From: Bacteroidales bacterium
GTDB lineage: Bacteria; Bacteroidota; Bacteroidia; Bacteroidales; VadinHA17
Reading direction: 5' to 3'
Length of the DNA: 35,158 nucleotides
NCBI GenBank assembly: GCA_011620595.1
Contig: WOYX01000059.1
Coordinates: forward strand, 102,064-137,221
Part shown: positions 1 to 15,317 of the stretch, in pieces
How the letters are laid out: the number at the start of each line of letters is the position of its first letter
How positions within the stretch are numbered: position 1 is the first letter of the stretch
Notes under the pieces: model-generated
What the model was told of the DNA's origin: nothing
Seen by the model: only the letters and a program-made list of their open reading frames with translations
Databases searched by the model: none
Position numbers and translations under genes: made by a program

Positions 1-173
1 GCAGTCCGGCTGCTCGCTGTAATGACCCACCGGGTCATTCATTCACGCTCGCCCCCCCCTGCAGTCCGGCTGCTCGCTGTAATGACCCACCGGGTCATTC
101 ATTCGCGCTCGCCCCCCTGCAGTCCGGCTGCTCGCTGTAATGACCCACCGGGTCATTCATTCACGCTCGCCCC
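1..173. repeat. Tandem array of three ~58 bp units, each with a palindrome
   Basis: Three near-identical head-to-tail units begin at 1, 61 and 119. They differ by one A/G change in the second unit and by the length of a C-tract, which is 8, 6 and 4 C in successive units. Each unit carries the perfect inverted repeat AATGACCCACCGGGTCATT (8 bp arms, 3 nt loop) at 21-39, 81-99 and 139-157. The array starts at or before the window edge, so its full copy number is unknown. It ends about 19 bp before the prfB -7 box. It contains no unique spacers and no plausible gene. It could be an interspersed intergenic repeat or an operator array; the sequence does not decide. Confidence 0.9.
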
Positions 174-191
174 TCTACTCCCTATTTTTAC

Positions 192-199
192 TATCTTTG
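192..199 (+). promoter_or_regulatory. Bacteroidetes-type -7 box of prfB
   Basis: TATCTTTG is an exact match to TAnnTTTG and lies 18 nt upstream of the prfB start codon. No clear TTG is visible at the -33 position, which falls at the edge of the tandem repeat array. Confidence 0.6.
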
Positions 200-217
200 C
201 GCCAGACAGAAAGAGCC

Positions 218-1310
218 ATGATAACCAATGACCAGCTAAAAGAGCTCACTGAACGCCGGGATGCGTTAAGGAGGTATCTTTGACATCGACGGGAAGAGAA
301 CAGAGATAAAGGAGAAAGAGGAGATCACACATGCACCAGACTTCTGGGATGACCCAAGGAAGGCCGAGGAGCTGATGAAGGAGATATCCTCGGTAAAGAG
401 CTGGACAACAGCCTTTGATGCCGTCAACACCGCTGTCGAGGACCTCCTGGTCCTTTATGATTTCTACAAGGAGGGTGAGGTCACCGACAAGGAGTTGGGC
501 CGGCAGTATGACACTGCCCTGGCTGCCGTCGGGAAGCTCGAGGTGCGTAACATGCTCCGCAATGAGGAGGACCGCCTCGGGGCTATGCTCAAGATCAACG
601 CCGGTGCCGGCGGTACGGAGAGCAACGACTGGGCGCAGATGCTCATGCGCATGTACCTCATGTGGGGAGAGAAGAACGGCTACAAGGTCACCGAGGCATA
701 CTACCAGGAGGGAGACGAGGCAGGAATAAAGACTGTCACCCTCGAGTTCGAGGGCGACAACGCCTACGGATATCTCAAGAGCGAGAACGGCGTGCACCGC
801 CTGGTGCGCATATCGCCATTCAATGCCCAGGGTAAGCGTCAGACGACATTTGCATCGGTATATGTGGCACCACTGGTGGATGACGAAATCACCGTCGAGA
901 TAAACCCTGCCGACATCACCTGGGAGACCTTCCGCTCGTCGGGTGCCGGCGGCCAGAACGTCAACAAGGTGGAGACCGCGGTACGACTGCGCCATGCACC
1001 CACAGGACTGGTGATAGAGAACCAGGAGTCGCGCTCACAGGGACAGAACAGGGAGAATGCACTGCGCCTTCTGCGGTCGCATCTCTATGAGATGGAGCTG
1101 AGGAAGAGACAGGAGGCACAGGCAAAGATTGAAGGGTCGAAGAAAAAGATAGAGTGGGGCTCACAGATAAGATCATATACACTGCACCCCTTTAAGCTGG
1201 TGAAGGACCTGCGTACCGGTTATGAGACCGGCAACGCACAGGCAGTACTCGACGGCGAACTCGATGGGTTCATCAAGTCGTACCTCATGGAGTTCGGTGG
1301 CAGCCAGTGA
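218..1310 (+). CDS. prfB: Peptide chain release factor 2, expressed by programmed +1 frameshift
   Basis: RF2 recognises UGA and UAA stop codons and triggers peptide release in the ribosomal peptidyl-transferase centre. The gene is in two frames. ATG 218 opens a 21-codon frame-0 leader ([10 protein letters not shown]...RRYL) that ends at an in-frame TGA (281-283). A +1 slip at the preceding CTT continues from GAC 282 to the TGA at 1308-1310. The product is 363 residues, against about 365 in E. coli RF2. The leader and the residues just after the shift (DIDGKR..., APDFWDDP) align well with E. coli RF2. The stop-codon-recognition tripeptide SPF sits in [15 protein letters not shown], and the catalytic GGQ in [17 protein letters not shown]. 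The GGQ glutamine is the expected substrate of PrmC, encoded 6 kb away. A start at the internal ATG 375 would remove the N-terminal helices and is unlikely. Confidence 0.96.
269..284 (+). promoter_or_regulatory. RF2 autoregulatory +1 frameshift site
   Basis: The site reads AGGAGG TAT CTT TGA C. An internal Shine-Dalgarno-like AGGAGG is followed after 3 nt by the slippery CTT codon and by a TGA in the weak TGAC context. This is the same arrangement and spacing as the well-studied E. coli prfB site (AGGGGG TAT CTT TGA C). Low RF2 lets the ribosome pause and slip +1; high RF2 terminates at codon 22. The two halves of prfB lie in frames that only this shift joins. Confidence 0.95.
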
Positions 1311-9625: not shown

Positions 9626-9655
9626 TTTGTTAATAAATAATTATTCGTATTTTTG
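9626..9655 (+). promoter_or_regulatory. Promoter of the caspase/Reg_prop operon
   Basis: TTTG (9626-9629), 18 nt, then TATTTTTG (9648-9655) fits the Bacteroidetes TTTG-N19-TAnnTTTG promoter within one base of spacing. It sits in an AT-rich gap 30 nt upstream of the chosen start at 9686. It argues against any start upstream of 9686. Confidence 0.75.
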
Positions 9656-9685: not shown

Positions 9686-12067
9686 ATGAAACGAGGATTC
9701 TCAATTCTTGTGATGGTTCTTTTAGTTGCCGTTATTGATCTGAGCGGACAGACAGCGCGCAAATACATCAAGGCCGGAGACGAGTTTGTGCGCAACGGTA
9801 TGTTCGAGGATGCCATTGACCAGTTCTCCCGTGCCATTGATGAGGCGCCAGCTTCTGCCGACGGCTATGTCAGGAGGGCGATGGCCTATGAACTGACAGG
9901 CGATTACGGCCTGGCGTATGACGACTACAGGAGAGCCGGCAACTTCAAACCCGACGATACCGGAATACTTTATAACCTGGCACGTATATGCAACAGGCTC
10001 GGGGCAGAAGAAAAGAGCACCCCGGAAGAGAAGAACAAATACTATTCTGAAGCTGTGGCTCTGTTGCAGAAGGCCATCAGTGCAGAGTACCGCAACGGCA
10101 AGCTATACACGGAAAAGGTTGTATCACTGATTGGGATGGGACTGTGGGATCAGGCTCTCGGAGCCTCCGACACCGCCCTCCAGATGAGGGACGATGCCCT
10201 GAACTACTATTACCAGGGGATCATCTACCAGAGGAAGAATGATTACAACACGGCCAGGCGGCAGCTTGAGAAGGCTGTGACAAAGGATAAATCATTTACT
10301 GAGGCCCGCCTGGAGCTGGCAAGGGTACTCATCCGCCAGGGTGACGTGAACAGTGCGCTGGGACAATGCAACATGGTTATGAAGCAGGATGACAGGAACG
10401 TTGATGCTTACCTGACCAGGGCATTGGCATACGAAGCCAAGCTCGACTACCCGGCAGCCATCAATGATGTCTCCACGGCAATACTCCTTGATCCGGCGAC
10501 AGCTAAACACTATGTCACCAGGGGCACCTGCTACCAGAAGTTCAACCAGCATCTTGCCGCGGTGAACGATTTCACCAGGGCGCTGGCCATTGACCCGTAC
10601 ATGACGGAGACATACCTGCTGCGCGCCAGGTCATATGAGGAGATGAACGACTTCGAAAAAGCCGGGGACGACTATTCGAGTGTCATCACCATGAATGAAA
10701 GCAGCTCATCAGCAAAGCAGATGCTTAAGGAGGCCAACGAGAGGCTCTTTGCCATCAACCGCGAGACTGTCAGTCCTGAGATCATGATAGAATCACCCAC
10801 AATCATCGCAGGAGGTGAGATAGAGGTAGGTCTCGACAGGGAGAGCGTGCTCATCACCGGCAAGATCAGCGACAAGAGTATGCTGGCAGAGTTTTCCATC
10901 AACAATCAGCCGGTTCCTTTCGAGGGTAAGGGCACAATACCCTTCTCAGCGGAGGTTGAGATATCCGAAGATGAGATGGTCAGGATCATTGCCCGCGACA
11001 TATACAACAACGAGAGCGCACTGGCCTACCGCATCAGGCGTACGGAGGTGGATCCTCCGGAGATAGAGATACTGGCACCTTACATGGCAGGAGAGAACAT
11101 GTTGGTGATAGACAGTATCGCCACACGTATCGATATAGAGGGTAAGGTACTTGACCAGAACATGATCAGGTCGGTCATGATTGAAAACATCAGCGCGCAG
11201 TTCTCGCAGGACAACCTGAATCCCGAGTTCATTGCCAGGGGTGTTGACATCAGGAACAGAGACAAGGTCACTATCATTGTGGAGGACAAGTACGGCAACA
11301 GGACCATCAGGGATTTTACCCTGAACCGCAACGGCACCACCATTTCGGAGTCGAATCCCATGGGCAACACTCTCGTGGTCTTCATTGAGAACAGCGATTA
11401 CAAAAACTTCGCCGAACTGCAGGGTCCGCCCAGGGATGCAAGCCTTGTCACCTCAGTTCTGGAGGGCGACTACCAGGTGCTGCCGGTACGCAGGTTAAAG
11501 AACCAGACCAAGCAGCAGATGGAGAAGTTCTTTTCCATCGACCTGCGTGATGAGGTCAGGGACAAAAAGATCAAGTCGCTGGTGATATGGTTTGCCGGGC
11601 ACGGCAAGTTCATCAACGATGTCGGTTACTGGATTCCTGTTGACGCCCGCCGCGATGAGGAGTTCACCTATTACAGCCTCAACACTCTCAGGGCCTCCAT
11701 GGAGACCTACATGAACTACCTGACACACGTCCTGGTCATCACTGACGCCTGCGAATCGGGCCCCAGCTTTTACCAGGCAATGCGGTCTGACGTCAAACCG
11801 CGCAACTGTTCCGACTGGAGGGCCACGCAGTTCAAGTCGAGCCAGGTATTTTCATCGGCCGGCTATGAACTGGCGGTTGACGACTCCCAGTTCACGCGCA
11901 CCTTCGTCAATACTCTCAGGGGTAACCCCAACACCTGCATCTCCATCGAGGAGATAGTGATGCAGGTTACACAGGCCGTCGCACGGAATAATCAGCAGAA
12001 GCCCAAATTCGGTAAAATTACCGGTCTGAAAGATGAAGACGGCACCTTCTTCTTCGTAAAGAAGTAG
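9686..12067 (+). CDS. Exported TPR / Ig-like / caspase-family (C14) protein
   Basis: A 793-residue protein in four parts. (1) A signal peptide (MKRGFSILVMVLLVAVIDLSG), so it is exported. (2) About nine TPR-like helical pairs (about 25-340), for example DAIDQFSRAIDEAPASADGY and AVNDFTRALAIDPYMTETYL, for protein binding. (3) Two similar beta-rich modules of about 90 residues (about 365-455 and 456-552) resembling bacterial Ig-like repeats. (4) A C-terminal caspase/metacaspase domain (about 555-793). The catalytic dyad is visible: His639 in WFAGHGKF and Cys689 in ITDACESG, 50 residues apart. A peptidase role is therefore plausible, but substrate and activation are unknown. The start at ATG 9686 was chosen because it begins a signal peptide and follows the promoter. 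The next gene starts 4 nt after the stop. Confidence 0.88.
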   Translation: MKRGFSILVMVLLVAVIDLSGQTARKYIKAGDEFVRNGMFEDAIDQFSRAIDEAPASADGYVRRAMAYELTGDYGLAYDDYRRAGNFKPDDTGILYNLARICNRLGAEEKSTPEEKNKYYSEAVALLQKAISAEYRNGKLYTEKVVSLIGMGLWDQALGASDTALQMRDDALNYYYQGIIYQRKNDYNTARRQLEKAVTKDKSFTEARLELARVLIRQGDVNSALGQCNMVMKQDDRNVDAYLTRALAYEAKLDYPAAINDVSTAILLDPATAKHYVTRGTCYQKFNQHLAAVNDFTRALAIDPYMTETYLLRARSYEEMNDFEKAGDDYSSVITMNESSSSAKQMLKEANERLFAINRETVSPEIMIESPTIIAGGEIEVGLDRESVLITGKISDKSMLAEFSINNQPVPFEGKGTIPFSAEVEISEDEMVRIIARDIYNNESALAYRIRRTEVDPPEIEILAPYMAGENMLVIDSIATRIDIEGKVLDQNMIRSVMIENISAQFSQDNLNPEFIARGVDIRNRDKVTIIVEDKYGNRTIRDFTLNRNGTTISESNPMGNTLVVFIENSDYKNFAELQGPPRDASLVTSVLEGDYQVLPVRRLKNQTKQQMEKFFSIDLRDEVRDKKIKSLVIWFAGHGKFINDVGYWIPVDARRDEEFTYYSLNTLRASMETYMNYLTHVLVITDACESGPSFYQAMRSDVKPRNCSDWRATQFKSSQVFSSAGYELAVDDSQFTRTFVNTLRGNPNTCISIEEIVMQVTQAVARNNQQKPKFGKITGLKDEDGTFFFVKK

Positions 12068-12071
12068 ACTG

Positions 12072-15000
12072 ATGTACGGGGGAAGCGGTAATCACGGGAA
12101 CTCACTCTCTCTCCTCTCGGCGTGCCTGCTTCTTGTATCCTTCCTGCTGCCGTTGAATGCATCGGGGCAGCAGTATTATTTCGAACATTACAGCTCCAAG
12201 GAGGGTCTGGGCGCTTCAAAGGTCTACACTGTCATACAGGATGCCAATGACTTCATCTGGCTTGGTACTGGCAGCGGGGTGACACGGTTCGACGGACTGA
12301 GGTTCGAGAACTTCTCCTCTTCTGACAGTCTTGCCCCGGGAGGGGTGAAGAGTATCTTTGAGGACAGCCGCGGACGCCTGTGGCTTGGCCATATCGGGGG
12401 AGGCATGTCGGTACTGGAAGATAACCTCTTCAGGCGGGTGAGCTTCTCACCTTCACTATTCATCGGGGTCGACTCTGCCCGCATTACCGATCCGCTGAGT
12501 CCGGTGATGAGTCTCACGGGAGACATCACAGCGATTGTTGAATATGAGGGTTCCCTCTGGGTGGCTACATCACTGGGAGGGGCTCTGCGTCTTGAGATTC
12601 CGGAAAAAGGCGATGCGGTGATGACCGGCCAGCAGTATATGGGTCGGCAGGGCCTGAGCAATGATGCCTTCGGACTCTTCAGTGACAGCCGCGGCAGCCT
12701 CTACTGCATCACTGACATCGGGATCAAAAAGTACGATCATGCAAGTGACAGGTTCATCCCCTTTCACCCGGAAGGACTGACGAAGTATTTTCTGACCACC
12801 ACCATTTTCGAGGATTCGAGGAACAACATGTGGTTTGGCACCTTCAACGGGGGGCTCTACCGCCTTGACAGCGAGACAGGCGAGATGGGCTTCTACGATA
12901 CGCGCAACGGCCTCTGGGGTAACTTTGTGACTTTCATTACGGAGGATTACCGCGGCAACATCTGGGTTGCATCCATGGAGGACTGGGAGAGCAGGGGCGG
13001 GATCACGGTTTTCACACCTGAAGGTGCCAGAGTCTTCAACAGCACCAACGGGCTAATGGCGCGGCATATACTCTGCCTGACCGAAGACAGGGAGAGAAAC
13101 ATGCTGATAGCAGACAGGGATGCCGGTTTCTTTATCTACAAGGGGGATCACTTCACTTCGTTCCCTGCACCTGAGTATCTCCCCTCGAATGATGTGTTTA
13201 CCCTTGCGCAGGATACCACGGGTCGATACTGGTTTGGCACAAGCAAGGGGCTGTCGCTCTATGACCCTGAGAAAAAGGGCGACGAACGTGTTGTGCTCAG
13301 CGGTTTCCCCTCAGCCCTTGAAGAGGTGCACATAAGCATCATAAGGCCTGACGGCTACGGCAATGTATGGATTGTCACCTCCGGCGATGAGGTCTACAGG
13401 TATGATCTCAGGGAGAAGACCTACCGGTATGACCTCGATCTCAATGCCAGCCTGCGGTCTCTGAGGATAGCTGCGCTGGCTGCCGACGACAGCCACAATC
13501 TCTGGCTGGGCACTGACCGCGCTCTGATATCGTGGGATGAGCAGAGGAAGAAGGTCACCACCTACACCAGGATCAACGGGCTGACGGGTAATAACATCAC
13601 CTCTCTCTTCTGCGATAGCCGCGGGGTGATGTGGATAGGCACCGAAGACCGTAACGGTCTGACGAAACACATACCCGGCAGCGGCATATTTACGGCTGTA
13701 GATTTCGGCGCCGATGTAAGGCCGACGGCTATCAGTGAGACTGCCGACGGCACCCTCTGGGTGGGGACCATTGACGGGCTCTACGGGCTGAGAAATGATA
13801 CGGTATGGAAGAGGCTGACAGAGGCTGACGGGCTGCTGATGAACTCTATCAACCTGTTACAGCCCGACACCGACTGTAACCTCTACATTGGCACCAGCCT
13901 CGGGCTAAACAGGTACGACTGCACCACCGGACGTATATCTTCTTTCACGGAGAAGAGCGGCTTCACGGGGATAGAGACCAGGCCCGGCGCCTCGTTTATT
14001 GACGAGAGTGGTGATCTCTGGTTCGGTACGGCCAACGGAGCCATCAGGCTCAACCCGACGCTAATGCCTCCCGTGGTGACGGAGCCGGCGACACATATAT
14101 GGAGGACGCTGGTCAACTATGAAACCTTTCCCATGCATGACGGCATCCGTCTCTCCCACACCCAGAACAGGATCATCTTTGACTTCCTCAGCATCTGCCT
14201 GGTGAACCCCGAGACCGTCAGGTACCAGTTCATGCTTGAGGGTGCCGATGAAGGGTGGGTGACCACGGACCAGACGCGGGCCATGTACTCTTCCCTCAGT
14301 CCCGGGAGGTATGTATTCAGGGTGAAGGCATCCAACAACTACGGCTACTGGAATGAAGAGCCTGTTGAGCTGGCCTTCTCCATCAAGGGGCCTGTCTATC
14401 AGACGGCGTGGTTTCTGATACTGTGCATCACAGCCCTGATGAGCGCCATCTACATATTCATAAGCCTGAGGGAGCGCACTCTCCGCAAGGAGAAGGAGCT
14501 GCTGGAGCAGATGGTCGATGAGCGGACGGCTGAGGTGGTGACAAAGAGTATCGAGCTGGAGGAGAGGAACAGGGACACCACTGCCAGCATCAGGTATGCT
14601 GAGCGGATACAGGCCGCCATGCTTCCTCCGGAGAACTTCTTCAATGATACCTTCGTGCTGTTCATGCCCCGCGATATTGTCAGCGGCGACTTTTACTGGA
14701 TGTATGACAGCGGTTTCAAACAGTATATTGCTGCGGTAGACTGCACAGGTCACGGCGTCCCCGGCGCCTTCATGTCAATAATAGGCCACAACTCCCTGAA
14801 CAAGATCGTCAGGGAGAGCGGTATCACCAGGCCGTCAGAGATACTTGACCGTCTCAATACCGAGGTGGTACATGCGCTGCTTCAGAGGAGCGAGAAGGCA
14901 GTGCGCGACGGCATGGATATTTCGGTAATATCATATGACATACTCGACCATTATGTAGAGTATGCAGGTGCCTACCAACCCCTGTATCATGTGAGGAACG

Positions 15001-15317
15001 GAAAGGTGACCATAATAAAGGCTGACCGATTCCCGATAGGCATGATTGACGGACAGGCGAGGAAGGTCTTTACAAACCACAGGCTGGATGTCATGAAGGG
15101 CGACATGCTCTATATCTTCACCGACGGTTTTGCCGATCAGTTCGGTGGACCCGGGGAGAAGAAGTTCAAGACGGTAAGCATACGGTCGCTGCTGGCGGAG
15201 ATATATATGCTCCCCGTTGATGAGCAGAAGAGGCTGCTTGAGAAATCCATTCGCGACTGGATGGGAGATCTGCCCCAGATAGACGATATCCTGTTCATCG
15301 GAACAAGGATACCGTAG
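12072..15317 (+). CDS. Reg_prop beta-propeller sensor with SpoIIE/PP2C phosphatase output
   Basis: A 1081-residue protein. An N-terminal signal segment (about 10-32) is followed by 14 Reg_prop-type blades with the pattern D-x-x-G-x-hydrophobic-W-h-G-T (for example DANDFIWLGTGSG, DSRGRLWLGH, DTTGRYWFGTSKG, DESGDLWFGTANG). That number suggests two seven-bladed propellers. A Y_Y_Y domain follows (about 665-775), then one transmembrane helix (about 779-800), a coiled coil (about 803-840) and a cytoplasmic PP2C/SpoIIE (RsbU-like) serine phosphatase domain (about 841-1079). Conserved acidic residues include Asp890 in AVDCTGHGVPGAFMS and Asp1018 in FTDGFAD. It resembles hybrid two-component sensors of Bacteroidetes but has a phosphatase in place of the histidine kinase. 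Its target, such as an anti-sigma antagonist, is not encoded nearby. Co-transcription with the caspase gene is likely. Confidence 0.92.
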   Translation: MYGGSGNHGNSLSLLSACLLLVSFLLPLNASGQQYYFEHYSSKEGLGASKVYTVIQDANDFIWLGTGSGVTRFDGLRFENFSSSDSLAPGGVKSIFEDSRGRLWLGHIGGGMSVLEDNLFRRVSFSPSLFIGVDSARITDPLSPVMSLTGDITAIVEYEGSLWVATSLGGALRLEIPEKGDAVMTGQQYMGRQGLSNDAFGLFSDSRGSLYCITDIGIKKYDHASDRFIPFHPEGLTKYFLTTTIFEDSRNNMWFGTFNGGLYRLDSETGEMGFYDTRNGLWGNFVTFITEDYRGNIWVASMEDWESRGGITVFTPEGARVFNSTNGLMARHILCLTEDRERNMLIADRDAGFFIYKGDHFTSFPAPEYLPSNDVFTLAQDTTGRYWFGTSKGLSLYDPEKKGDERVVLSGFPSALEEVHISIIRPDGYGNVWIVTSGDEVYRYDLREKTYRYDLDLNASLRSLRIAALAADDSHNLWLGTDRALISWDEQRKKVTTYTRINGLTGNNITSLFCDSRGVMWIGTEDRNGLTKHIPGSGIFTAVDFGADVRPTAISETADGTLWVGTIDGLYGLRNDTVWKRLTEADGLLMNSINLLQPDTDCNLYIGTSLGLNRYDCTTGRISSFTEKSGFTGIETRPGASFIDESGDLWFGTANGAIRLNPTLMPPVVTEPATHIWRTLVNYETFPMHDGIRLSHTQNRIIFDFLSICLVNPETVRYQFMLEGADEGWVTTDQTRAMYSSLSPGRYVFRVKASNNYGYWNEEPVELAFSIKGPVYQTAWFLILCITALMSAIYIFISLRERTLRKEKELLEQMVDERTAEVVTKSIELEERNRDTTASIRYAERIQAAMLPPENFFNDTFVLFMPRDIVSGDFYWMYDSGFKQYIAAVDCTGHGVPGAFMSIIGHNSLNKIVRESGITRPSEILDRLNTEVVHALLQRSEKAVRDGMDISVISYDILDHYVEYAGAYQPLYHVRNGKVTIIKADRFPIGMIDGQARKVFTNHRLDVMKGDMLYIFTDGFADQFGGPGEKKFKTVSIRSLLAEIYMLPVDEQKRLLEKSIRDWMGDLPQIDDILFIGTRIP

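Follow-up and report, generated by a model that had tools for sequence, protein, structure and literature searches.

A conserved Bacteroidales gene pair encodes an exported caspase homologue and a propeller sensor phosphatase that may act on a SiaC-type partner switch

We analysed a stretch of 35,158 nucleotides (nt) from a Bacteroidales bacterium of the VadinHA17 lineage (assembly GCA_011620595.1, contig WOYX01000059.1, positions 102,064 to 137,221), referred to below as the window, in which two large genes lie in tandem, 4 nt apart (12068-12071; Table 1). The first, P0001, encodes an exported caspase homologue and the second, P0002, a membrane sensor with a double propeller outside and a phosphatase domain of the PP2C/SpoIIE type inside. 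Genomes across the order keep the two genes side by side, and this conserved gene order supports a functional link between caspase and sensor. Our best explanation, to which we assign a probability of about 0.5, is that the sensor, a propeller-PP2C protein, dephosphorylates SiaC and has the exported caspase as its dedicated input, so that the pair would form a transmembrane input module for a partner switch. A preliminary description made from the letters of the window alone had proposed an envelope signalling unit of this kind. Its placement of the two open reading frames (ORFs) was confirmed, as was its view of P0001 as an exported TPR/Ig-like caspase with the catalytic dyad His639 and Cys689 (from Pfam, hydropathy and alignment, with the Ig-like part coming from the predicted structure), and the orientation it gave to P0002 is supported by Pfam, the predicted structure and hydropathy.

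Conservation was assessed in 247 genomes of the order, with counts of orthologues and best rows made among the matches listed. An orthologue of P0001 is present in at least 26 of the 247 genomes (the copy in G049 is broken over two contigs and that in G038 is short), and in 22 of these 26, spanning 14 family codes, it stands next to a P0002 orthologue in the same order and on the same strand. The caspases of this orthologue group make up clade I. Gaps within the pairs range from -4 to 356 nt and do not exceed 51 nt in 17 of the 22; G099 has its P0002 frame split into two ORFs. Approached from the sensor side, 22 of the 24 best P0002 rows (E up to 4.5e-143) are the paired ones, and in a species collection of close relatives (L031-L045, 78-95% identity) the pair occurs in 15 of 15, again with a spacing of 4 nt. 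The pair stays together in different genomic neighbourhoods: the gene upstream is ribD in 13 of the 22, other neighbours are found in 8, and the remaining case is split by a contig end (G049). A P0001 search of the window's own genome returned one match; a Peptidase_C14 (PF00656) family search of the same genome was a false negative, missing P0001 itself, and was left unused for caspase counts. Phylum-wide, the best P0001 match in the other 394 of 395 genomes reached 90 bits among the matches listed; no full-length orthologue stands in this list, which shows no more than five further genomes of the order, so clade I seems restricted to the order.

The same arrangement recurs in a second, distant group of caspases. 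Our caspase tree of 76 rows contains 29 clade I members (23 paired, 6 unpaired) and 47 other caspases of the order, and six of the latter (L084-L087, L122 and L125) precede a Reg_prop-SpoIIE gene under a pairing rule of same strand, caspase first and a distance within 1200 nt. All six belong to one 10-row branch remote from clade I, their gaps being 2-59 nt apart from L084 (857 nt, with an intervening ORF), and their six sensors form one clade (support 100*) separate from that of P0002. The caspase gene comes first in all 28 paired genomes. Both trees were built by a quick method with long branches flagged, and near-duplicates and fragments were omitted (L031, L033-L045, L068, L076, L077 and L080 from the caspase tree; L031, L033-L045 and L068 from the sensor tree). 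L084-L087 had been selected because both genes appeared on one contig in the match lists, and 40 other loci selected by caspase match alone gave two pairs (L122 and L125); several caspase-only loci end close to the caspase, and some pairs may be missed. Two near misses at contig edges went uncounted, one with a SpoIIE fragment preceding the caspase (L127) and one with a propeller fragment two genes downstream of it (L118). With both clades taken together, the functional link put forward in the preliminary description gains support from conservation, and the adjacency reaches well past the close relatives of the window's genome. We consider it probable that the caspase protein and the sensor act together. 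The correlation between P0001 and P0002 distances (19 rows, r 0.84) was not used as evidence, because shared phylogeny alone would yield much of it.

Several observations weigh against a dedicated link. Four of the 26 orthologue genomes do not have the genes adjacent: in G037 and G035 the P0002 orthologue lies elsewhere in the genome, and G228 and G125 are missing from the 24 best P0002 rows. G042 carries an additional, unpaired full-length copy of the P0001 type; 41 of the 47 caspases outside clade I are unpaired in total, including the other 37 rows beyond the 10-row branch, which fail the pairing rule; and no Reg_prop-SpoIIE gene was seen at 14 clade II-like caspase loci of other orders or classes. 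Shared ancestry accounts for much of the adjacency in clade I, so that its 22 genomes do not count as independent events. Dosage or joint control could also be the sole reason for the operon, with the caspase maturing or degrading other envelope proteins and P0002 sensing an unrelated cue, for example a glycan; the separated genes, the many caspases that lack such a neighbour and the resemblance of the P0002 sensor to heparin-sensing hybrid two-component systems all fit this account. We nevertheless judge it unlikely, since adjacency is kept across neighbourhoods and in two distant caspase clades, with an invariant gene order, and since two minimal paired caspases consist of nothing but signal peptide and caspase domain.

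These minimal proteins, L074 (261 amino acids) and L075 (263 amino acids), whose nearest upstream genes are 185 and 322 nt away, also bear on which part of P0001 would matter to the sensor. Compared with P0001, 19 full-length paired orthologues average 63.2% identity in the caspase domain, against 34.4% in the TPR region and 30.3% and 38.0% in the two Ig domains. Because L074 and L075 dispense with the TPR region, and because the caspase domain is so much better conserved, the TPR region is not the constant part of the protein, which modifies the earlier suggestion that TPR binding may change the state of the propeller. The Peptidase_C14 match of Pfam covers residues 563-774 of P0001 with 54.8 bits (curated cut-off 21.4), and among 44 clade I rows, counting near-duplicates, the catalytic Cys is present in 44 and the His in 42. 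Loss of catalytic residues, which the preliminary description would have counted against its proposal, was therefore found once, in L046 and L068 (one contig), where Leu replaces the His and both the Cys and the pair are retained; the dyad is otherwise kept. This loss, together with the four genomes in which the genes are unlinked, counts against an obligate catalytic link.

Other residues of the caspase domain hint at what it might cut. Asp584 and Asp687 are invariant in 44 of 44 clade I rows, and excerpts of PMC4357240 and PMC6426788 describe Asp95 and Asp211 as the acidic S1 pocket of TbMCA2. From motif position, rather than from a structural alignment, we take the former to be the probable counterpart of the latter, and because they sit at these acidic-pocket positions, P0001 would be expected to cleave after Arg or Lys (basic P1). 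Cys708 and Cys751, likewise invariant in clade I rows, would suit a periplasmic disulphide. Every paired caspase with a complete N-terminus begins with a signal-peptide-like hydrophobic segment, and by eye the starts of L054 and L060 (one family) carry a lipoprotein-like signal, LVQC. In the predicted structure of P0001 the order of strands and helices fits a caspase, but the predicted local distance difference test (pLDDT) score is below 50 for residues 687-793, which tells against leaning on the model there. Foldseek with this model gave TPR proteins, by description, as its best 50 matches; a sequence search with the caspase domain alone gave no PDB match at E<=1, and Pfam gave no match for the Ig-like domains.

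An alternative is that the caspase domain binds the propeller, as ligand or co-receptor, and does no cutting. The lineage that has lost the His while keeping its Cys and its partner gene would be explained in this way, and the TPR and Ig parts are suggestive of binding; the near-complete retention of His, Cys and the acidic-pocket Asp, in a domain far more conserved than the binding domains, makes this an improbable account. That proteolysis is itself the signal is a proposition on which we come down a little short of even odds.

The sensor combines a known type of periplasmic receptor with an output domain of a different kind. Pfam detects Reg_prop (143.5 bits), Y_Y_Y (53.1) and SpoIIE (67.3) in P0002, SpoIIE being the only domain after Y_Y_Y, with no histidine kinase, receiver or helix-turn-helix match. 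Its N-terminus is signal-peptide-like by hydropathy, and we count fourteen strand groups in the double propeller of the predicted structure. Foldseek aligns the model with the periplasmic domains of BT4663 (4a2m) and BT3049 at target TM-scores (TMt) of 0.70-0.74 and E-values down to 1.5e-45, and its PP2C domain with that of SiaA (SiaA-PP2C, 6k4e) at TMt 0.82 and 29% identity. The latter relationship is also found by phmmer (E 8.6e-29), and by eye the GD, VDC.GHG, MD, TDG and DDI motifs of the two PP2C domains align. Over 18 full-length paired orthologues, mean identity to P0002 is 52.5% in the PP2C domain and 39.5% in the propellers. P0002 was rejected as a SiaA equivalogue: the NCBIfam model NF038263 matches residues 804-1080 only, with 176.2 bits against a cut-off of 700, and the two have this domain in common.

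The likely substrate of this phosphatase domain is suggested by the Sia system. As described in excerpts of PMC7647112 and PMC8457831, in P. aeruginosa SiaC is phosphorylated at T68 by SiaB and dephosphorylated by SiaA; in its free form it binds the SiaD stalk. In our sample SiaC was found in 102 of the 247 genomes and a SiaA-type PP2C (query P0002 850-1081, E<=1e-20, a threshold fixed before the result) in the identical 102, with 0 discordant, and all 26 genomes with a P0001 orthologue fall within this set. Many genomes of the order have at least 10 matches each for SiaC and SiaA-type PP2C. Three genomes, each with one SiaC match, carry SiaB and SiaC genes immediately 3' of the pair and in the same orientation (G159 at L061, G049 at L073 and G134 at L070); the SiaB products score 136-156 bits (cut-off 85) and the SiaC products 138-147 bits (Pfam, cut-off 24.5). 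Because G134 and G199 each hold one SiaC and a single SiaA-type PP2C match at threshold, of a strength that fits the P0002 orthologue, the sensor and SiaC are very likely cognate in these two genomes. Co-occurrence, operons and fold together lead us to regard it as highly probable that the PP2C domain of P0002 acts on SiaC.

The window's own genome is less simple. It has seven SiaC genes and six SpoIIE-domain matches, and a SiaB-family kinase (127.6 bits, cut-off 85) is encoded beside one of the SiaC genes. Two points here count against our explanation: none of the seven SiaC genes adjoins the pair, and Ser takes the place of Thr at the phosphosite in L103 and L105, two of the five own-genome SiaC proteins that were fully read. 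The NTS phosphosite motif is present in SiaC of L061 and L101 and, by eye, of L102 and L104. One SiaC gene (G000:C17:93940-94308) lies on the pair's contig, 8 kb left of the window and outside the pair's operon, and the gene before it reads by eye like RNase H. A GGDEF search of this genome gave 0 matches, the same search being positive in 8 of 14 control genomes, an absence that carries the same risk as the PF00656 family search because the latter proved a false negative.

A candidate for the effector of SiaC comes from the relatives. In L061 (11479-12003) and L073 (5208-5774) the SiaC gene is followed by one for a protein of 174 and 188 amino acids, respectively, with no GGDEF match. A search of 80 genomes (40 with SiaC, among them the 26 with P0001 orthologues, and 40 without SiaC) located this stalk protein in five, all among the 26 (G049, G159, G099, G134 and G199; loci L187-L191) and each with one SiaC match. 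In these genomes it measures 173-188 amino acids, has a coiled coil and two hydrophobic stretches, carries the motif [KR]ISDRLQ in 5 of 5 (KISDRLQ in L061 and L073) and is encoded directly 3' of SiaC in 4 of 5. The motif is close to R80-I81-S82-x-R84-Y85-Q86 of SiaD, in which S82 and Q86 contact T68 of SiaC according to excerpts of PMC8457831. Because a PDB search with the stalk-protein profile retrieved a PhoU homologue (E 0.0048) and no SiaD, the likeness comes down to this short motif and to weak NCBIfam SiaD matches (E 4e-4 and 1e-4) that stand beside other weak coiled-coil matches. We see the stalk protein as a candidate cyclase-free SiaC effector, probably acting in some relatives, with weak signs of kinship to SiaD. 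The search did not find it in the window's genome, a further point against our explanation, or in 20 of the 25 other genomes with a P0001 orthologue.

Our explanation can be set out as a sequence of steps. P0001 would be exported to the periplasm, where its caspase domain, mounted in most members on a TPR/Ig platform, would signal an envelope event to P0002. It could do so by cleaving a substrate, namely P0002 itself or a ligand of P0002, or by docking on P0002 in a state-dependent manner. The double propeller would pass the change through a single membrane helix and a coiled coil to the PP2C domain, which would dephosphorylate a SiaC-family protein phosphorylated by a SiaB-family kinase; unphosphorylated SiaC would then bind its effector, in some relatives probably the membrane stalk protein with its SiaD-like motif. 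The step from caspase to propeller is one we infer from gene order, co-export and conservation; contact between caspase protein and propeller, proteolysis as the signal and the direction of the switch are likewise proposed. In its most specific version, the exported caspase would cut to switch the propeller receptor, and the PP2C domain would set the phosphorylation of SiaC and through it the state of a membrane-anchored, cyclase-free stalk effector, with no cyclic di-GMP (c-di-GMP) involved; we offer this version tentatively, as one that is less likely than not.

The stimulus might lie in envelope biogenesis. If the pair belongs to a quality-control or secretion-linked system, it would monitor outer-membrane or type IX secretion system (T9SS) biogenesis, and the caspase would be a stress protease. 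Other Reg_prop-SpoIIE genes of the order have neighbours that would fit: in the window's own genome an operon of CHU_C, PorP-SprF, PKD-PD40 and an unknown protein of 332 amino acids ends in a paralogous Reg_prop-SpoIIE gene (L088, G000:C58, 4454-13001), and SurA/PPIase-type foldases are encoded just upstream of such genes in L098 (7830-10034), L099 (8743-10914) and L100 (2257-4374), whose sensors are sister to the second paired sensor clade. The T9SS PorZ model NF052228 gives P0002 63.7 bits, a weak match below its cut-off of 260. Beside the window's pair, by contrast, no T9SS or envelope-chaperone gene was seen in translations read by eye, and Pfam finds no secretion-tail domain in P0001, on which ground P0001 was also rejected as a T9SS substrate. 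As a distinct account this is rather unlikely; it names a stimulus, however, and is compatible with the partner-switch explanation. Propeller phosphatase genes thus repeatedly follow a gene for an exported or envelope partner, and a run of gene sizes like that of L088 appears in 8 further loci (L083, L089-L094 and L097; Pfam was applied to L088 only).

Further caspase contexts were noted outside the order. In L173 (5668-9901) a caspase gene is directly followed by one for a Reg_prop protein that ends in a type IX sorting tail and lacks SpoIIE; papain/DUF4384 proteins lie near caspases in L180 and L173, and secretion-tail proteins in L174 and L176. In another order, L177 and L178 (G368:C96 324000-356000), two adjoining stretches, carry nine consecutive caspase-domain ORFs.

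Caspase homologues act as effectors in some bacterial defence systems, and the pair could in principle be a cell-death or anti-phage module with P0001 as its effector. We rejected an anti-phage defence reading, as neither protein has a PADLOC match at E<=0.001; the signal peptide moreover places the caspase outside the cytoplasm, and 13 of the 22 pairs occupy the shared ribD chromosomal neighbourhood rather than an evident mobile island, so that a defence role is very improbable.

The preliminary description had also placed the pair behind one good promoter. What stands of this is a match to TTTG-N18-TAnnTTTG, which we take to be the Bacteroidota promoter consensus; the pattern occurs twice in the window against 0.32 expected from shuffling. 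Because at least two matches also arose in 6 of 100 shuffles, this site is plausible as the promoter of the pair and not proven, and a sigma-70-type scan found no plus-strand site upstream of P0001. A scan for terminator-like sites found none between the two genes. An alternative TTG start of P0001 at 9653 would add 11 amino acids. The pair is preceded by prmC and ribD and followed, on the opposite strand, by a LOG-family gene, a thioredoxin gene and dnaE (all named from translations by eye), and these flanking genes look like ordinary chromosomal genes.

Table 1. Features of the gene pair, in window coordinates or, where so given, in residues of the encoded protein.
Feature	Position	Strand	Description or basis
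Promoter-like match, Bacteroidota type (TTTG-N18-TAnnTTTG)	9626..9655	+	30 nt 5' of P0001 ATG; pattern match
P0001 ORF	9686..12067	+	793 amino acids from ATG; exported TPR/two Ig-like/caspase C14 protein
P0001 signal peptide, residues 1-22	9686..9751	+	predicted from hydropathy; cleavage near SGQ
P0001 TPR superhelix	residues about 23-357	+	several Pfam TPR models
P0001 two Ig-like domains	residues about 361-550	+	predicted structure, strands 365-547
P0001 caspase domain, residues 556-793	11351..12064	+	most conserved part over 19 paired orthologues
P0002 ORF	12072..15317	+	1081 amino acids; Reg_prop double propeller/Y_Y_Y/transmembrane helix/coiled coil/SiaA-like PP2C (SpoIIE) phosphatase
P0002 periplasmic double propeller, about residues 35-660	12174..14051	+	Pfam, predicted structure, Foldseek (BT4663 periplasmic domain 4a2m, TMt 0.72-0.74)
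P0002 membrane helix, about residues 775-801	14394..14474	+	hydropathy peak, predicted structure
P0002 PP2C/SpoIIE domain, residues 846-1081, SiaA-PP2C-like	14607..15314	+	Pfam, NCBIfam, Foldseek, phmmer

Several known kinds of system share parts of this arrangement. With SiaABCD of P. aeruginosa it has in common a SiaA-like PP2C, a SiaB-family kinase and a SiaC-family phosphoprotein, clustered with the pair in three relatives, but it differs in the double-propeller sensor, in the exported caspase that comes first and in the lack of a GGDEF match in the window's genome. The Bacteroides hybrid two-component systems (BT4663, BT3049) likewise place a double propeller and Y_Y_Y outside a single membrane helix, whereas the output of P0002 is a PP2C phosphatase. 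Prokaryotic caspase homologues (orthocaspases and metacaspases of C14), as far as excerpts of the survey PMC3501461 describe them, share the C14 domain, the HC dyad, the acidic S1 pocket and TPR partners with P0001. The operon section of that survey names no SpoIIE phosphatase, and its main text, supplementary tables aside, contains neither 'SpoIIE' nor 'propeller'; excerpts of it do describe a caspase-CHASE2 fusion. Outside the order, we observed genes for a CHASE2-SpoIIE protein (L181, 13066-15054) and a CHASE2-cyclase protein (L179, 9072-11258) near caspase genes, which resemble the present pair in linking a caspase to a transmembrane receptor with phosphatase or cyclase output and differ from it in receptor fold and in a looser gene order. 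The author of the preliminary description knew of no described system with this pair, and our searches of an open-access library gave no account of a caspase/Reg_prop-SpoIIE pair; subscription papers and preprints lay outside the scope of the search.

To our knowledge, the role of exported bacterial caspase homologues is largely unknown. In two distant clades, gene order connects one such family with a receptor whose cytoplasmic output, the phosphorylation of SiaC, can be named and assayed. SiaA-type phosphatases and SiaC travel together through the whole order, the window's genome is without a detectable diguanylate cyclase, and five relatives offer a candidate SiaC effector. The many Bacteroidales with a secreted caspase-like gene beside a membrane sensor phosphatase point to a possible route by which a protease outside the cell membrane acts on a phosphorylation switch in the cytoplasm; if it exists, these bacteria would pass signals from caspase to phosphatase across the inner membrane independently of c-di-GMP.

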